Assembly: GCA_030673845.1 (NCBI GenBank)
Contig: JAUTCQ010000011.1
Location: 1 to 64,000 of the forward strand
Length of the DNA stretch: 64,000 nucleotides
Reading direction: 5' to 3'
Origin: Verrucomicrobiota bacterium JB022
Lineage (GTDB): Bacteria; Verrucomicrobiota; Verrucomicrobiia; Opitutales; Oceanipulchritudinaceae
Positions 19,643-26,579 of the stretch are shown here, in pieces. The notes beneath the pieces are model-generated. The model saw only the letters and a list, made by a program, of their open reading frames with translations, was not told the DNA's origin and did no database searches. The number at the start of each line of letters is the position of its first letter. Position 1 is the first letter of the stretch. The position numbers were made by a program, and so were the translations under genes.

Positions 19643-19715
19643 AACCCGAAATCCGTTGCGCCTTGACCTCGGATGGTTTGAAGTCTCCTCCACTCCTCTA
19701 CCCCTACCCCAAACC

Positions 19716-20852
19716 ATGGCTTCCAAGCGTATTACCCTGGCGGATATCGCGCGCGCGGACGGCACCCACGTGACTACGGTCTCGCTCGCAATGCGCAACA
19801 GCCCCAAGCTCCCGGAGGCGACCCGCCGCCGCATCCAGGAGCTGGCGGAGAAGATGGGCTACCGGCCCGACCCCGTGCTGCGCGCCCTCGTCTCTTACCG
19901 CGAAGGCGCTCGCGAGCATTACGACCGCAAGACCCTCGCCTACGTCACCAACTGGACGACCCGCTGGGGCTGGAAGGACGTTACCGCCCACCCCCAGTTC
20001 TTCGACGGAGCCAAGGCGGCAGCCGAGCGCCTGGGCTATCGGCTGGAGCACTATTGGCTACGCGAACCGGGCCTGAGCCATGGGCGCCTGAGCCGCATCC
20101 TCAATTCGCGCGGCATCGACGGGCTGATCATCGCCTCCCACGCGCGGGAGATGGAAGACAGTCTGGCGCTCGACTGGGAGCACTTCGCCGCCGTCAAGAT
20201 CGACTTCTTCCCCCACTACCCGACCCTTAACAACGTGACGAACAACCAGTGCGGCATCATGCGGCTGGCCATGCGCAAGGTGCTGGAGGCTGGCTACACC
20301 CGCATCGGTTGTATCATGCACCGGGGTTGGGACTTGAGCGTCGACCGCATGTGGACCGCCGGCTACCTCGTGGAGCAGCAACAGATCCCGGAGACTTCGC
20401 GGCTGCCGGTGTGCCTCTTCCCCGCCTATCACCCGGTCGACACCTGGATCCACGAAAACCAGAGCACGGTGCAGATCGACGCCACCCGCCTGCGCCGCTG
20501 GCTCGACGCGTGGCAGCCGGAGGTGATCATCACCAACGGGATCTTTGTGCGCGACGCGATCGAAGAGCTGGGCCTGCGGGTGCCGCGCGACGTGTGCCTG
20601 GTTGATCTCTTTCTCGACCGCTTCGACGGCACGGTCGCTGGCGTGCAGCAAAACCATGACGAGGTGGGCGCGGCGGCCATCTCACTGCTGGCAGGCCAGC
20701 TGACCCAAAACATCCGGGGCATCCCACGTATCCCCACGACGACTTTCATCGAAGGCACTTGGCACGACGGTGCCACCCTGCCCTTGCGGCGTCGCCGGCA
20801 GCCCGCCGTCGGCGTGCCCGAAGAGGCGGCGGTACCCCTGGAGGCCGAATAA
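19716..20852 (+). CDS. LacI-family transcriptional regulator
   Basis: A 378-residue regulator with an N-terminal LacI helix-turn-helix (ITLADIARADGTHVTTVSLA, residues 6-25; second part ATRRRIQELAEKMGYRPDP) and a periplasmic-binding-protein-like effector domain (residues 70-345). The start is placed at the ATG at 19716 so that the HTH begins at residue 6; the preceding codons are C-rich leader (CTCTACCCCTACCCCAAACC). It is divergent from the GH3-to-SDR run and probably controls it in response to a xylan- or uronate-derived sugar. It ends with a Pro/Arg/Glu-rich tail of about 30 residues not seen in classical LacI. Confidence 0.92.
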   Translation: MASKRITLADIARADGTHVTTVSLAMRNSPKLPEATRRRIQELAEKMGYRPDPVLRALVSYREGAREHYDRKTLAYVTNWTTRWGWKDVTAHPQFFDGAKAAAERLGYRLEHYWLREPGLSHGRLSRILNSRGIDGLIIASHAREMEDSLALDWEHFAAVKIDFFPHYPTLNNVTNNQCGIMRLAMRKVLEAGYTRIGCIMHRGWDLSVDRMWTAGYLVEQQQIPETSRLPVCLFPAYHPVDTWIHENQSTVQIDATRLRRWLDAWQPEVIITNGIFVRDAIEELGLRVPRDVCLVDLFLDRFDGTVAGVQQNHDEVGAAAISLLAGQLTQNIRGIPRIPTTTFIEGTWHDGATLPLRRRRQPAVGVPEEAAVPLEAE

Positions 20853-20895
20853 CGCCGGGCTGCCCCACAGCTGGATCGCTCTCGTATTCATGGCG

Positions 20896-20923
20896 ATTTC
20901 ATTCTATTTCATTTGCATTTCAT
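20896..20923. promoter_or_regulatory. Three helically phased ATTTCAT repeats upstream of the TRAP operon
   Basis: ATTTCAT occurs at 20896-20902, 20906-20912 and 20917-20923, that is at 10- and 11-base spacing, so all three face the same side of the helix. The block lies about 145 bases before dctP. TTTCAT is also the half-site of the enterobacterial KdgR (IclR-family) operator, and an IclR regulator is encoded just downstream of this gene set, so it is a candidate operator. Confidence 0.45.
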
Positions 20924-21067: not shown

Positions 21068-22084
21068 ATGGACAAAAAGTCCCTTTCGTTTCTCTTCGTC
21101 GGCCTCCTGATCGGAGTATTCGGCGCCACAGTCACCCTGGCGGTGATGGCGGGCTCCGGCTACGGATCGGGCAGCAGCCAGACGAAGGTCCTCAAACTGG
21201 CGCACTCGCTGGACCAGGCGCACCCCGTCCACCTGGCCATGGTTCACATGGCGGAAAAGGTGGCCGAAAACTCCGGCGGCGCCCTCCAGGTGCAGATCTT
21301 CCCCAACGGTCAGCTGGGCACGGAAACCGAGACGGTGGCCCAGGTGCAGCGTGGCGCGTTGGCGCTCGTAAAGACCTCCGCCGCCAGCATGGAAGCCCTC
21401 GTGCCCGAAATGGGCGTCTTCTCCGTGCCGTATCTCTTCCGCGACGAAGAGCATTACTGGAATGTGCTGAACGGCCCGGTGGGCGAAGAATTCCTGCAAA
21501 TGGGCGTGAGCCAGGGCCTGCACGGTCTCACCTATTACGACGCCGGTGCCCGTAGCTTTTACGCCAGCAAAAAGCCGATCCAGACCCCCGCCGACCTCCG
21601 GGGCATGAAGGTGCGCGTGATGCAGAGCGACGGCGCGATCTCCGGCCTTGCCGCCACCGGCGCCTCCCCGACGCCGGTGCCGTGGGGCGACCTCTATACG
21701 GCCCTGCAGCAGGGCATGGTCGACGCCGCCGAAAACAACGTGCCGAGCTACTTTACCAGCCGCCACTACGAGGTGGCCCCCTATTTTTCGCTGGATGAGC
21801 ACATGCGCATCCCCGACATCCTGTTGATCAGCGAAGTCGTCTGGAACAACCTCACGCCGGAGGAAAAGCAGTGGCTGACCGATGCCGCTGACACCTCCCT
21901 CCAGTTCCAGCGTGAGCTGTGGGCCGAGCAGACCGAGGCCAACCTGAAAGAGTTGGAAAACCTGGGTGTGAAAATCTACCACCCCGACCAGAAGCCCTTT
22001 GCCGCCGCCGTGCAGGATTACCAGAACTCTCTGCGCCAGACGCGCCTCGGCAAGTACATCGAAGCAATCGAGGAGGTCCAATGA
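21068..22084 (+). CDS. dctP: TRAP transporter substrate-binding protein
   Basis: Extracytoplasmic solute receptor of a tripartite ATP-independent periplasmic transporter. It has 338 residues, with an N-terminal hydrophobic segment (residues 6-29) that is a signal peptide or membrane anchor followed by a Gly/Ser linker. The DctP fold is shown by LKLAHSLDQAHPVHLAM, IFPNGQLGTETETVAQVQRG, LRGMKVRVMQSD near residue 180 and the QQGMVDAAENN block that follows it. The substrate is probably a hexuronate or unsaturated uronate, because kduI and kduD follow. The start at 21068 gives a proper signal sequence; longer in-frame extensions do not. The gene overlaps dctQ by the ATGA arrangement. Confidence 0.93.
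   Translation: MDKKSLSFLFVGLLIGVFGATVTLAVMAGSGYGSGSSQTKVLKLAHSLDQAHPVHLAMVHMAEKVAENSGGALQVQIFPNGQLGTETETVAQVQRGALALVKTSAASMEALVPEMGVFSVPYLFRDEEHYWNVLNGPVGEEFLQMGVSQGLHGLTYYDAGARSFYASKKPIQTPADLRGMKVRVMQSDGAISGLAATGASPTPVPWGDLYTALQQGMVDAAENNVPSYFTSRHYEVAPYFSLDEHMRIPDILLISEVVWNNLTPEEKQWLTDAADTSLQFQRELWAEQTEANLKELENLGVKIYHPDQKPFAAAVQDYQNSLRQTRLGKYIEAIEEVQ
22071..22076 (+). promoter_or_regulatory. Shine-Dalgarno-like AGGAGG before dctQ
   Basis: AGGAGG sits four bases before the dctQ ATG, inside the last codons of dctP. It is the clearest Shine-Dalgarno match in the window, although the Glu-Glu codons of dctP could produce it by chance. Genes that begin transcripts here lack such sites. Confidence 0.4.
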
Positions 22085-22646: not shown

Positions 22647-23954
22647 ATGGACCTACAAATTCTGATTTTGCTGCTTTCCTTCACGGCCCTCCTGCTCATG
22701 GACGTGCCCGTGGCGGTCTGTATCGGCGTGGCCACCGTGCTCACGATGTATTCGATCGGCGAAGTGCCCACCGAATATATCACCGCTCAACGCCTTTCCA
22801 CCGGTATCGCCAGCTTCCCCTTGCTGGCCATCCCCTTCTTTGTGCTTGCCGGCGTGCTGATGGGCGCGGGCGGCATGGCCCGACGCCTGATGGACTTCGC
22901 CAACGCCCTCGTCGGCGGCTTCCACAACGGCCTCAGCTACGTCAACACCATCACCTGCATGCTCTTCGGCGCCGTTTCGGGCTCCGCCGCTGCGGCGGTG
23001 TCTTCCATCGGCAGCTTCATGATGCCGGAGATGGAGCGCAAGGGCTACGGGCGCCCGTTTTCGGTCGCCTTGACCACGACTTCCGCTACCACGGGCCTGC
23101 TCATCCCGCCCAGCAATATCATGATCGTGTATGCGGTCGTGGCGGGTAATGTGAGCATCACCTCGCTCTTCATCGCCGGGGTCGTGCCGGGGATGGTCGT
23201 CGGTGGCCTCCTGATGGTCGCCTCGTGGTGGGTGCAGCGCAAGAACCGCAGCGAAGAGCTTTCGCACGCTTCGCCCCGCAAGATGCTGATCAGCTTCCTG
23301 CAGGCGGTGCCCAGCCTCGCGCTGATCTTCATCGTGATGGGCGGTATCCTGGGCGGGATCTTTTCCGCCACGGAGGCCTCCGCCGTCGCCGCGCTGTATG
23401 CCTTCCTGCTCGGGGTGGTCTTCTACCGCGAGGTGAAGATCAAGCAGATCCCCGAAGTGCTGCTGCAAAGCGCCAAGACGACCGCCATCGTGATGTTCCT
23501 CGTCGGCGCCAGCCAGGCGATGAGCTGGGTGCTCTCTTACGAGATGATCCCGCAGACGGTGAGCGACGCCATGCTCGCCATCAGCGACTCGCCCATCGTC
23601 ACCCTGCTGATCATCAACATCCTGCTGCTCGTCGTGGGCACGTTTATGGACATGACGCCGGCGGTGCTGATCTTCACGCCTATCTTCCTGCCGGTGGTGA
23701 CCGGCTTCGGCATGGACCCCGTGCACTTCGGCATCATGATGATCGCCAACCTTTGCATCGGCCTCTGCACCCCGCCGGTCGGCACCTGCCTGTTCGTCGG
23801 CTGCGGCGTGGGCAAGACGACGCTCGCCCAGGTGATGCGCCCGCTGGTCCCGATGTTTATCGCAATGTTTGCCGGCCTGCTGATCATCAGCTACGTGCCC
23901 GCCGTTTCGCTCTGGCTGCCGAACTTCATCGAGAGCCTGCTGCCCGGCCAATAA
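22647..23954 (+). CDS. dctM: TRAP transporter large permease
   Basis: The large multi-helix subunit of the TRAP transporter, 435 residues, about 12 hydrophobic segments. Typical DctM features are FPLLAIPFFVLAGVLMGAGG near residue 53, the GAVSGSAAAAVSSIGS loop near residue 110, LIPPSNIMIVYAVV, and FTPIFLPVVTGFGMDPVHFG near residue 345 with CTPPVGTCLFVGCGV after it. The gene begins 20 bases after dctQ, preceded by CCTGCCCTCCCCCGCAAC, and is followed by a strong terminator, so dctPQM probably form one transcript. The likely substrate is a uronate, from context. Confidence 0.94.
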   Translation: MDLQILILLLSFTALLLMDVPVAVCIGVATVLTMYSIGEVPTEYITAQRLSTGIASFPLLAIPFFVLAGVLMGAGGMARRLMDFANALVGGFHNGLSYVNTITCMLFGAVSGSAAAAVSSIGSFMMPEMERKGYGRPFSVALTTTSATTGLLIPPSNIMIVYAVVAGNVSITSLFIAGVVPGMVVGGLLMVASWWVQRKNRSEELSHASPRKMLISFLQAVPSLALIFIVMGGILGGIFSATEASAVAALYAFLLGVVFYREVKIKQIPEVLLQSAKTTAIVMFLVGASQAMSWVLSYEMIPQTVSDAMLAISDSPIVTLLIINILLLVVGTFMDMTPAVLIFTPIFLPVVTGFGMDPVHFGIMMIANLCIGLCTPPVGTCLFVGCGVGKTTLAQVMRPLVPMFIAMFAGLLIISYVPAVSLWLPNFIESLLPGQ

Positions 23955-23980
23955 ACCGGCGCCCGGCCTTTTTCTCCCGA

Positions 23981-24014
23981 CTGGAGGCGCGTGCTGCACG
24001 CCCTCCAGTTTTTT
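23981..24014 (+). terminator. Rho-independent terminator after dctM
   Basis: CTGGAGG-CGCGTG pairs with CACGC-CCTCCAG (one bulge) around a CTG loop, followed by TTTTTT. It lies 27 bases after the dctM stop and separates the TRAP transcript from kduID. Confidence 0.9.
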
Positions 24015-24020
24015 ACTGGG

Positions 24021-24057
24021 CCAAAGTGTTCATATTTGGATAATATGTCCATTTTGG
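24021..24057. promoter_or_regulatory. 37-base nested dyad, candidate operator of kduID
   Basis: Two inverted-repeat layers share one centre at 24039: inner arms CATATT (24031-24036) and AATATG (24042-24047) are perfect; outer arms CCAAAGTG (24021-24028) and CATTTTGG (24050-24057) match at seven of eight positions. The element lies between the dctM terminator and kduI, where the kduID promoter must be. A perfect 12-base palindrome ACGGTGCACCGT also lies nearby at 24082-24093. Confidence 0.5.
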
Positions 24058-24159
24058 TTTACAGAGGCCGACGCCTTTCCTACGGTGCACCGTCTAGGCG
24101 CTGGACTGTGGTTACGGCGCTGCCCGATCAAACCTCTCCCAACAATCTACCCGAATTTC

Positions 24160-24984
24160 ATGCTGTATACATTGCCTCCCGAAATGGTCCGCCGGGCCGA
24201 TACTCAAGAACTGCGCGACAACTTCCTGCTCGCCGGCCTCTTCGCCCAGGGCGAGATCAAGCTGCGCGTGTGCGAGCTCGACCGCGTGGTCGTAGGCGGC
24301 GTGGTGCCGACCTCCGGTGCGCTGGAGCTGCCGGCGCTCAAGGAGCTGGCCTGCGAATACTTCTGCGAACGCCGCGAGCTGGGTGTGATCAACCTCGGCG
24401 GCGAGGGCGACGTGACCGTCGACGGCGAAACGTTTTCCATCGGCCACTGCGACGCCGTCTACGTGAGCCGCGGCAGCAAGAAGGTGACGTTTGCCTCCAA
24501 GGACAACGCCAAGCCCGCGCAGTTTTACCTCGTGAGCTACCCCGCCCACAAGGAATACCCGACCAAGCTCGTGCGCCATGCCGACGTCGAGCCGCGCGTG
24601 CTCGGCCAGAAGACGACGGCCAACTGCCGCAAGCTCTACCAGCTGATCGTGCCCGGCCGCGCCGATAGCTGCCAGCTCGTGATGGGCTTTACCAAGATCG
24701 AAGACGGCAGCGTGTGGAACACCATGCCGCCGCATACCCACCTGCGCCGCTCCGAAGTGTATTGCTACTTCGACGTGAGCGAAGGTGCGCTTGTCTTCCA
24801 CTTCATGGGCGAGCCCACCGAAACGCGCCACCTCGTGATGCGCGAAAAGGACGCCGTGCTCTCCCCCGCCTGGTCGATCCACTCCGGCGCGGGCACCGGC
24901 CCCTACAGCTTTGTCTGGGCCATGGGCGGCGAAAACCAGTCGTTTGACGACATGGACCACTGCGACCTCAGCACCCTGCGCTAA
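24160..24984 (+). CDS. kduI: 5-keto-4-deoxyuronate isomerase
   Basis: Isomerises 4-deoxy-L-threo-5-hexosulose uronate, the product formed from unsaturated uronates, to 2,5-diketo-3-deoxygluconate. The 274-residue length is normal. KduI landmarks are visible: RELGVINLGG-type core near residue 67, YVSRGSKKVTF, FYLVSYPAHKEYPT, and the zinc-binding segment MPPHTHLRRSEVYCYFD near residue 190, with a later SPAWSIHSGAGT providing another His. The start at 24160 gives the standard N-terminus with the MVRRADTQELRDNFL block at residue 9; frame upstream has no similarity. It is followed without a gap by kduD. Confidence 0.95.
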   Translation: MLYTLPPEMVRRADTQELRDNFLLAGLFAQGEIKLRVCELDRVVVGGVVPTSGALELPALKELACEYFCERRELGVINLGGEGDVTVDGETFSIGHCDAVYVSRGSKKVTFASKDNAKPAQFYLVSYPAHKEYPTKLVRHADVEPRVLGQKTTANCRKLYQLIVPGRADSCQLVMGFTKIEDGSVWNTMPPHTHLRRSEVYCYFDVSEGALVFHFMGEPTETRHLVMREKDAVLSPAWSIHSGAGTGPYSFVWAMGGENQSFDDMDHCDLSTLR

Positions 24985-25752
24985 ATGAGCCAAGCAGCCA
25001 ACTTTGACCTGAGCGGCAAAACCGCCATCGTGACCGGAGCCTCCAAGGGCCTCGGTGCCGCCATCGCCATCGGCCTCGCCCAATCGGGCGCCGACGTGGC
25101 CCTGGTGGCCCGCGGCGACCTCTCCGAAACTCGCGCCGGGGTCGAAAAGGCCGGGCGCAAGGCCTTCGAGATCCCCGCCGACCTTTGCAACCGCGAGGAG
25201 ACCCGTCAGGTGCTGCCCCGCATCCGCGAAGCCATCGGCGGCGAGCCCGACATCCTCGTCAACAACGCCGGCACCATCCGCCGCGCCGACTTCCTCGACT
25301 TCAGCGAAAAGGACTGGGACGAGGTGCTGGAGCTCAACCTGACCTCCCTCTTCCTCCTCAGCCAGGAGTTTGCTCGTGGCGTGGTCAAGGCAGGCAAGCC
25401 GGGCAAGATCATCCAGATCGCCTCGATGCTCTCCTACCAGGGCGGCATCCGCGTGCCCTCCTACACTGCCTCGAAGAGCGCAGTGATGGGGCTGACGCGC
25501 CTGATGGCCAACGAGCTGGCGCCGCACCAGATCAACGTCAACGCCATCGCCCCCGGCTACATGGCGACGGAGAACACCGCACCGCTGCGGGCCGACGAAG
25601 CGCGCAACAAGGCGATCCTCGACCGCATCCCCGCCGGGCGCTGGGGCGACCCGACCGACATCGTGGGGCCGACCGTCTTTCTCGCCTCCGCCGCCTCCAA
25701 CTACCTGCAGGGCTACACCATCGCCGTCGACGGCGGCTGGCTCGCCCGCTAA
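24985..25752 (+). CDS. kduD: 2-dehydro-3-deoxy-D-gluconate 5-dehydrogenase
   Basis: An SDR enzyme that reduces 2,5-diketo-3-deoxygluconate to 2-keto-3-deoxygluconate, the step after KduI. The 255-residue sequence has TGASKGLG (residues 17-24), NNAG (93-96), Ser147, Tyr160 and Lys164, and the KduD-like details NNAGTIRRADFLDFSEKDWD, FARGVVKAG and MATENTAPLRAD. The ATG follows the kduI stop directly (TAAATG), a tight coupling consistent with a two-gene operon. A good terminator follows 14 bases after the stop codon. Confidence 0.95.
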   Translation: MSQAANFDLSGKTAIVTGASKGLGAAIAIGLAQSGADVALVARGDLSETRAGVEKAGRKAFEIPADLCNREETRQVLPRIREAIGGEPDILVNNAGTIRRADFLDFSEKDWDEVLELNLTSLFLLSQEFARGVVKAGKPGKIIQIASMLSYQGGIRVPSYTASKSAVMGLTRLMANELAPHQINVNAIAPGYMATENTAPLRADEARNKAILDRIPAGRWGDPTDIVGPTVFLASAASNYLQGYTIAVDGGWLAR

Positions 25753-25766
25753 GAAGCTTGTTTCAC

Positions 25767-25798
25767 GCGCCGGGCCTGCCAAACGCCCGGCGCTTTTT
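25767..25798 (+). terminator. Rho-independent terminator after kduD
   Basis: A perfect 9-bp GC-rich stem, GCGCCGGGC/GCCCGGCGC with a nine-base loop, is followed by TTTTT. The iclR start codon lies only 11 bases after its end. Confidence 0.92.
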
Positions 25799-25808
25799 GT
25801 CTCTTCCC

Positions 25809-26579
25809 ATGCCGGCCTACACGATCCCCAACCTCAGCAACGCTTGCACGGTGCTGCGCTTCCTCGCGCAACGGCCCCAAGGTGCCACGCTGGCCGGGAT
25901 TGTGGCTGGGCTGGAACTGCCGCGCACCACGGCACTGCGCATCGTGACTACGCTGGAGCACGAGGGCTTTGTGCGCCGCGACGACCGGCACTACTTCGTC
26001 GGCCCCGCCCTCATCCCATTGGGAGTCGCCGCCCAGGCCAAGGTGGAGCTGCGGTCCATCGCCCTGCCCTTCATGCAGCAAGCGGTCGAGGCCACCGGCG
26101 AAACGTGCCACCTCGCGGTGCCGTTCGAAGACAAGTCGATGATCGTGGAAGCGGTCCAGAGCCCCCACCCGCTCACCGCCAGCAGCCGCACGGGCTCCCT
26201 GGTCGACCTCGTCTGCTCCGCCTCGGGCAAGGTCTTCCTCGCCTATCTGCACGAGCATGACTTCGCCCAACTGGTGCCGGTGGAAAAGCTGGTCGCCCGC
26301 ACTCCGAATTCGATCCTCACCCACCAGCGCCTTGCACAGGAGCTGACCGCCACGCGCACGCGCGCCTACGCGCTGGACGAAGAGGAATACTTTACCGGCG
26401 TGCGCTGTGTGGCCGTGCCCATCTGGTCGAGCCGGGGCGTGGAAGGCGCGCTGGGCCTTACCGCCTCCGCCCACCGGCTCACGCCCGAGCGTGTGCCGAC
26501 GGTAGCCGCCAGCTTGCAGAAAATCGCCAGTCGTATCTCCGAGCGCATTGGAGGGCCTGCCGTCCACACAGCCCGCTGA
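25809..26579 (+). CDS. IclR-family transcriptional regulator (KdgR-like by context)
   Basis: A 256-residue regulator with an N-terminal winged helix (NACTVLRFLAQRPQGATLAG, then LPRTTALRIVTTLEHEGFV, residues 8-55) and an IclR effector domain (residues 75-245) with the family-typical SGKVFLAYL near residue 138 and AVPIWSSRGVEGALGLT. The start at 25809 is chosen because the HTH then begins near residue 8. It follows kduD after a terminator that leaves no room for a promoter, so expression is likely by readthrough or from a promoter within kduD. By context it probably controls TRAP and kduID genes in response to 2-keto-3-deoxygluconate. Confidence 0.9.
   Translation: MPAYTIPNLSNACTVLRFLAQRPQGATLAGIVAGLELPRTTALRIVTTLEHEGFVRRDDRHYFVGPALIPLGVAAQAKVELRSIALPFMQQAVEATGETCHLAVPFEDKSMIVEAVQSPHPLTASSRTGSLVDLVCSASGKVFLAYLHEHDFAQLVPVEKLVARTPNSILTHQRLAQELTATRTRAYALDEEEYFTGVRCVAVPIWSSRGVEGALGLTASAHRLTPERVPTVAASLQKIASRISERIGGPAVHTAR

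Follow-up and report, generated by a model that had tools for sequence, protein, structure and literature searches.

The symmetrical DNA at positions 24021 to 24057 of the window (the whole 64,000-nucleotide stretch that was analysed) is quite probably the operator bound by the IclR-family regulator whose gene lies at 25809 to 26579, through which the transcription of kduI and kduD would be controlled. Judged on sequence, it is most likely a well-supported and fairly ordinary kind of genetic switch, in the layout that relatives use beside genes for pectin and uronic acids.

The kduI-kduD locus and its upstream symmetry

The kduI gene (5-dehydro-4-deoxy-D-glucuronate isomerase, 24160 to 24984) and the kduD gene (2-dehydro-3-deoxy-D-gluconate 5-dehydrogenase, 24985 to 25752) lie on the forward strand; the source genome comprises 4.35 Mb and is 97% complete. 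Both products scored above their NCBIfam equivalog cut-offs, with 396.8 bits against 250 for NF002091 and 372.2 bits against 338.85 for TIGR01832, and the best named relatives of kduI include Pelagicoccus and Didemnitutus, which points to the phylum Verrucomicrobiota as the source. The kduI frame stays open 5' of the ATG at 24160 as far back as 24085, where it has a GTG; the ATG is the start that the family profile fits. The regulator gene follows on the same strand at 25809 to 26579, and its protein carries the HTH_IclR (PF09339, 46.6 bits) and IclR_C (PF01614, 127.7 bits) domains, both over the cut-off. A terminator-like stem with a T run at 25767 to 25809 ends approximately 10 to 15 bases 5' of the start codon of iclR. 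In the region upstream of iclR, no operator of the kind described below was found. The TRAP genes dctP (21068 to 22084) and dctM (22647 to 23954) lie upstream of kduI, and a LacI-family gene (19713 to 20852) lies upstream of the TRAP genes.

An initial annotation had described a nested 37-base dyad in front of kduI. Its arms, CATATT/AATATG (24031 to 24036 and 24042 to 24047) and CCAAAGTG/CATTTTGG (24021 to 24028 and 24050 to 24057), indeed share a common centre at 24039, with 13 of the 16 arm positions paired around a 5-base middle. The dyad sits between dctM, whose stop codon ends at 23954, and the kduI ATG, just 3' of an intrinsic terminator. When the stretch between dctM and kduI was shuffled by dinucleotides, an equally good dyad by composition-weighted score appeared in 7 of 1500 shuffles, and 13 of 16 arm positions were paired in 4 of 1000. 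The unweighted score makes a weaker case than the weighted one: against the 8.5 of the dyad, a score of 8 was reached in 11.8% of shuffles and a score of 9 in 3.4%. The description of this dyad as the strongest symmetrical DNA in the window did not hold, as it ranked third by composition-weighted score (20.0 bits vs 23.1 and 20.9) and was outscored by 29 window dyads when unweighted. A search of the whole genome for the fixed 37-base pattern with up to 3 mismatches returned no copy besides the dyad itself. The 12-base palindrome ACGGTGCACCGT, which had been noted together with the dyad and which contains the GTG mentioned above, is present at 24082 to 24093, but only at chance level. It needs no explanation, because the window holds 28 perfect palindromes of 12 bases against 23.7 expected, and it was excluded from the operator.

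The symmetry kept in relatives is centred at 24034.5 and 24044, not at 24039. Read in the register of the relatives, the window gives TTCA(24029)-TATT-TGGA(24037)-TAATATG-TCCA(24048), with all three spacings exact. The predicted IclR-type operator accordingly spans 24029 to 24051 on the forward strand, and consists of three boxes of alternating direction, TTCA (24029 to 24032), TGGA (24037 to 24040) and TCCA (24048 to 24051), with spacers of 4 and 7 bases. The distance from the first to the third box is 19 nt, and the boxes lie approximately 106 to 126 bp from the kduI ATG. The first two boxes form a strong 12-bp dyad, TTCATATTTGGA (24029 to 24040), which is identical to the dyad in the kduI/iclR intergenic region of locus L003. 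The second dyad of the pair is weak, ranking 1076 in the window by itself, and the fourth box, within 24052 to 24059, is degenerate; it reads GGTT in the register of the relatives, or TGGT (24055 to 24058) if the core has 3 bases. The latter reading, for which the published motif had been thought to allow, was dropped, as the published core is longer than the window core.

The nested 37-base dyad was rejected as a functional unit, since the relatives preserve the box register and not the centre at 24039; it is probably a by-product of the three-box operator. A palindrome that strikes a reader can thus arise as the by-product of a conserved site with a different centre. The phylogenetic footprinting that the initial annotation had called for supported a regulatory site between the TRAP genes and kduI, with the IclR protein as a candidate binder, but the anatomy had been misread, the kept unit being TTCA-N4-TGRA-N7-TYCA at 24029 to 24051.

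Rarity of the site and its register in relatives

A first matrix was built from 18 sites of relatives, with the window excluded from training. With this matrix, 24029 to 24059 ranked first in the 64 kb at 15.8 bits, followed by 2.7 bits (40761) and 2.3 bits (an overlapping frame), and 24029 was also first in the window with the 12-bp dyad matrix, at 18.2 vs 12.6. The score of the site was reached by 0 to 2 of 3000 intergenic shuffles with the 31-bp matrices and by 3 of 5000 with the 12-bp matrix; the corresponding counts for local 50-bp shuffles were 2 to 3 of 3000 and 11 to 16 of 5000. Column-permuted matrices reached it in 0 to 5 of 1000 cases. The 4.35-Mb genome contains the exact pattern TYCA-N4-TGRA-N7-TYCA (TYCANNNNTGRANNNNNNNTYCA) twice, this site included, and the reversed control not at all; the other match is GC-rich and lies inside long open frames. 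The four-box pattern with 3 mismatches was uninformative in the same genome, where its 46 places equalled the control count.

Two sequence models were also applied. Model R1 gave it a rough E-value of 0.074 in the window, and returned nothing genome-wide at E ≤ 10 with 150 of 211 candidates scored. Because R1 leans on near-identical TTCACTAATGAACTTG sites, model R2 was given greater diversity and symmetry, using an alignment (A2) of 16 sites in both orientations with the window left out. The best R2 match in the window was 24028 to 24054, with a rough E-value of 0.0023. In the R2 search of the genome, with 150 of 176 candidates scored, this site was the best match, at an equally rough E-value of 0.157, and the next stood at 1.65.

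The lead to the register came from L006, L027 and L030, in which the DNA upstream of kduI holds TTCA-N4-TGAA dyads beside oppositely directed iclR genes. A class-wide search with the window IclR protein matched 56 of 286 genomes at E ≤ 1e-15, and the closer relatives carry TTCA-N4-TGAA-N7-TTCA-N4-TGAA upstream (alignment A1), for example TTCACTAATGAACTTGTCATTCATATTTGAA in L030. Across 31 upstream regions of iclR relatives, a set that takes in near-copies and training sites, exact TYCA-N4-TGRA was present in 27 and TGRA-N7-TYCA in 14. Facing TYCA and TGRA boxes at any other spacing from 2 to 10 bases were present in 0 to 2 of the 31 regions each.

The co-occurrence of kduI, the regulator and the site was compared across genomes. 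A kduI match was found in 10 relatives, one of which (G011) holds a fragment only. Six of the other nine have a close IclR relative (G003, G010, G019, G032, G045 and G004), and all six have a site. It lies at kduI in G003, G010, G019 and G045 and in the iclR/TonB-receptor intergenic region in G004, and takes the form of one extended dyad in place of the tandem in G032. The G019 and G045 sites were training sites, and the sites of L004, L005 and the G004 iclR/TonB region were outside the first training set. In G004, the iclR relative (L169:7383-8128, G004:C67) is split over two frames; the kduI/TonB locus is otherwise kept there, with two strong operator-like sites. The three kduI genomes without a close IclR relative (G014, in which the best match is 30% identical, and G029 and G050, with none at E ≤ 1e-10) have no site upstream of kduI, and kduI of G014 looks operon-internal.

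R2 searches of the relatives' genomes, in most of which only 150 candidates were scored, gave best matches with rough E-values of 1e-4 to 0.03 in G003, G004, G010, G019 and G045 (the best match being a training site in G004, G019 and G045), and of 0.75 in G032, 1.12 in G050 and 2.62 in G001; there were none in G014 and G029. The only match in G050 (L158, G050:C1:3610762-3610794) lies approximately 6 kb from its kduI, with no close IclR there at E ≤ 1e-10. The only same-genus genome searched, G001, gave no kduI match at E ≤ 0.001 and no regulator match at E ≤ 1e-15.

A symmetric matrix was also applied to the regions upstream of kduI at 91 of 93 loci, with L011 (a fragment) and L052 (no upstream DNA) dropped. 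The top seven were L030, L027, L007, L003, L004, L005 and the window; the first four are training sites, and L004 and L005, from the same family (G003 and G010), were outside that training. With a uniform background, the window site scored 10.8, well below the sites of the relatives and by a small margin above the best unlinked kduI upstream region (L082, 9.1). This small margin, like the number of window dyads that score higher unweighted (29), speaks for the reading that the symmetry arose by chance and has no function. However, the ranks given by the matrices and models, the rarity of the pattern and the register common to the relatives argue against chance, which we consider very unlikely.

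The inverted repeat might also act at the RNA level, as a hairpin in the kduI 5' leader or as a second terminator of the TRAP operon, and 24015 to 24062 does fold at -17.5 kcal/mol (z -4.4). Such a role appears most improbable, however, as a strong terminator stands just upstream, no long U run follows the hairpin and no Rfam match was obtained up to E 1. Furthermore, what is conserved among the relatives is the box register, and any tandem dyad would fold.

The regulator lineage and its neighbouring genes

In a tree of IclR proteins, rooted by midpoint only, the window IclR sat on a long branch (1.25) within a 27-row group whose support was 92/91, below the level that the tool stars, and 14 other IclR proteins formed a separate group (100/99). 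Duplicate or overlapping loci, sequences cut by contig ends (L015, L023, L033 and L042), the split G004 copy and alignments of fewer than 200 positions were left out of the tree. All 23 hand-labelled site-bearing rows, the window included, belong to the 27-row group, together with four unlabelled rows. One of these four, L155, belongs to the L003 locus as its regulator, and that locus has a site. The loci of this regulator lineage that came from the regulator search only (L096 to L111, approximately 1.5 kb on each side) contain kduI in 6 of 16 cases (L101, L105, L108, L109, L110 and L111), the L110 call resting on an overlap with L006, which was itself run. Another 12 regulator loci came from kduI searches and hence hold kduI by selection. 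For IclR regulators outside the lineage, kduI was nearby in 0 of 15.

Two IclR_C matches were found in the source genome, namely the linked IclR and a second protein encoded at C3:9342-10085 (L171, G000). The second gene has TTTATATATGAA approximately 39 bases upstream, perhaps as its own operator. The protein that binds in front of kduI could be this second IclR, given TTTATATATGAA in front of its own gene, or another palindrome-binding protein, for example the product of the LacI-family gene at 19713 to 20852, which stands upstream of the TRAP genes. However, the second IclR shares only 25% identity with the linked one, and its gene lies on a different contig. LacI operators have a central CG, which is absent here, and the motif travels with the lineage of the linked IclR. 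We therefore regard binding by another protein as decidedly unlikely. Similar tandem dyads occur outside the 27-row group, with 16 of 16 consensus positions in L112 (with a 6-base gap) and 14 of 16 in L116, L121 and L123. Because these four loci lie outside the clade and the second IclR gene has TTTATATATGAA upstream, the linked IclR is the probable binder rather than a proven one.

The same-family genome G003 holds six R2 sites on contig C123 (L166 6278; L166 17909, which is the same as L167 2910; and L167 5573, 5752, 10444 and 13629), and these were used in neither training set. One of them lies at the start of a TonB-receptor gene, which is followed by kduI and kduD on the same strand. The others precede a gene for a PL9-type protein, a unit including a PL1-type pectate lyase, a gene for a GH28 protein and two genes whose products have no known function. 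A GH88 protein gene and TRAP genes 52 to 63% identical to those of the window belong to the same strand run, and the cluster also contains iclR. Since the sites of this contig sit among pectin genes, the regulator lineage is placed in pectin use.

The terminator after dctM in the window (23979 to 24015, forward strand) consists of a stem and a T run, folds as RNA at -23.1 kcal/mol (z -6.4) and was equalled by 0 of 200 shuffles; a simple terminator scan did not list it. It splits the TRAP transcript from the kduID transcript. In the window TRAP promoter region, no such operator site was found (best score -13.0). The suggestion of the initial annotation that the TRAP and kduID transcripts respond to different regulators fits the sequence, because the terminator separates the two and the TRAP genes are without such a site. 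It is not proved, however, and the TTCAT units in front of the TRAP genes resemble the same box. Four of these units form direct repeats at 20887 to 20923, 5' of dctP, spaced 11, 10 and 11 bases apart (approximately one helical turn); each resembles one IclR box, and all point the same way. A whole-genome search for the array that allowed up to 3 mismatches gave this single occurrence. At L006, L109 and in G003, TRAP genes lie on the same strand as, and adjoin, genes preceded by such sites. The dctP gene lies 3' of iclR in L006 and 3' of kduI on the same strand in L109; therefore, the TRAP genes may share IclR control elsewhere.

Predicted mechanism and comparison with known systems

We infer that the linked IclR binds the predicted operator in a tetramer mode and that it represses rather than activates. 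One IclR dimer would occupy the strong dyad centred at 24034.5, while TCCA at 24048 to 24051, 19 bp after the first TTCA, would be bound together with the degenerate fourth box by a further dimer or by the remaining half of a tetramer. The linked IclR would most likely act as the repressor of kduID, and an intermediate in the breakdown of unsaturated uronates (DKI, or KDG) would probably relieve the repression, confining kduID expression to times when pectin-type uronates arrive. A tentative promoter, TTTACA-N17-TACGGT at 24058 to 24086 on the forward strand, was placed by eye. It is weak, because a scan for sigma-70 consensus promoters lists none at 24058 to 24086.

Some IclR-family proteins activate by recruiting polymerase. 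The linked IclR might likewise activate kduID if, bound just 5' of the weak TTTACA-N17-TACGGT promoter, it recruited polymerase in the presence of the inducer. The failure to find a good sigma-70 promoter is consistent with activation. The by-eye -35 element touches the downstream edge of the operator, a position that suits activation or repression, and the boxes lie outside the -20 to -80 zone in which most IclR sites are found according to the main text of Suvorova and Gelfand 2021 (PMC8222616). However, L086, a Planctomycetota relative, has a good -35/-10 pair upstream of its boxes, which thereby occupy the position of a repressor, and L062 is alike except for two masked bases; both promoters were read by eye, and promoter rules in this phylum are uncertain. 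Activation is possible but, in our judgement, rather unlikely, and repression by the linked IclR is the preferred reading.

A broader model, which we consider unlikely as a whole, would combine two proposals. In Verrucomicrobiota and some Planctomycetota, an IclR lineage distinct from KdgR would govern the breakdown of pectin and unsaturated uronates by means of a single operator whose 4-base core is unusually tight, and the second symmetry, at 24039, would allow the regulator to alternate between two ways of pairing dimers on overlapping boxes, so that kduID would have a two-state switch.

IclR-family control of kduI-type genes is shared with KdgR of Gammaproteobacteria, which serves pectin use and targets kduI and kduD. 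However, the window IclR scored only 86.6 bits against the KdgR equivalog cut-off of 275, and the shortened KdgR box TGAAACGNCGTTTCA had 0 matches in the window within 3 mismatches. The E. coli IclR operator TGGAAATNATTTCCA contains the same TGGA-N7-TCCA pair, which is present here as TGGATAATATGTCCA at 24037 to 24051 with 3 mismatches. The window system differs from that of E. coli: its protein reached a score of 104 where the cut-off is 380, its pair is linked with an N4 dyad, and E. coli IclR has other targets.

In Verrucomicrobiota, a putative KdgR/GntR regulator (cupin plus HTH) of Verruconatronum alginivorum has been assigned to the Kdg/Kdu pathway (PMC13274419). It resembles the window IclR as a regulator of this pathway in the same phylum, but it belongs to another protein family, and the main text of that paper contains neither "IclR" nor "operator". 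A literature search gave no published Verrucomicrobiota IclR/kduI operator among the matches listed. The site described here gives uronate catabolism an operator and a regulator that can be tested, in a phylum on whose transcription control little was found in print, and R2 can be used to predict pectin regulons in related genomes.

The main text and Table 2 of Suvorova and Gelfand 2021 (PMC8222616) allow a comparison with IclR-family sites in general, although Table 2 includes no Verrucomicrobiota and "Verrucomicrob" is absent from the main text. The group 1 consensus given there, GKTYCRYW3-4RYGRAMC, leaves 7 to 8 bases between TYC and GRA, and their group 2 pair, TGRAACAN1-2TGTTYCA, corresponds to TGRA-N7-8-TYCA; three-box sites are given for 32 orthologous groups, and tandem sites 18 to 22 nt apart for 94. 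The window operator shares with these sites the alternating TYCA/TGRA boxes, the group 2 pair (TGGA-N7-TCCA, within TGGATAATATGTCCA), the three-box layout and the sugar-acid targets. The three-box sites of PcaU, PobR and HmgR, cited in the same paper, also add a third box to an IclR-family dyad, but their box sequence and pathway are different. The group 1 facing pair with its published core is absent from the window, as 6 bases separate TTC from GGA in TTCATATTTGGA; the gap is also 6 in the relatives, one base tighter than the published 7 to 8. The window operator is a known IclR-family layout varied in its core spacing, and this tight core, present in 27 of the 31 upstream regions of relatives, gives a spacing that the published IclR consensus does not cover.
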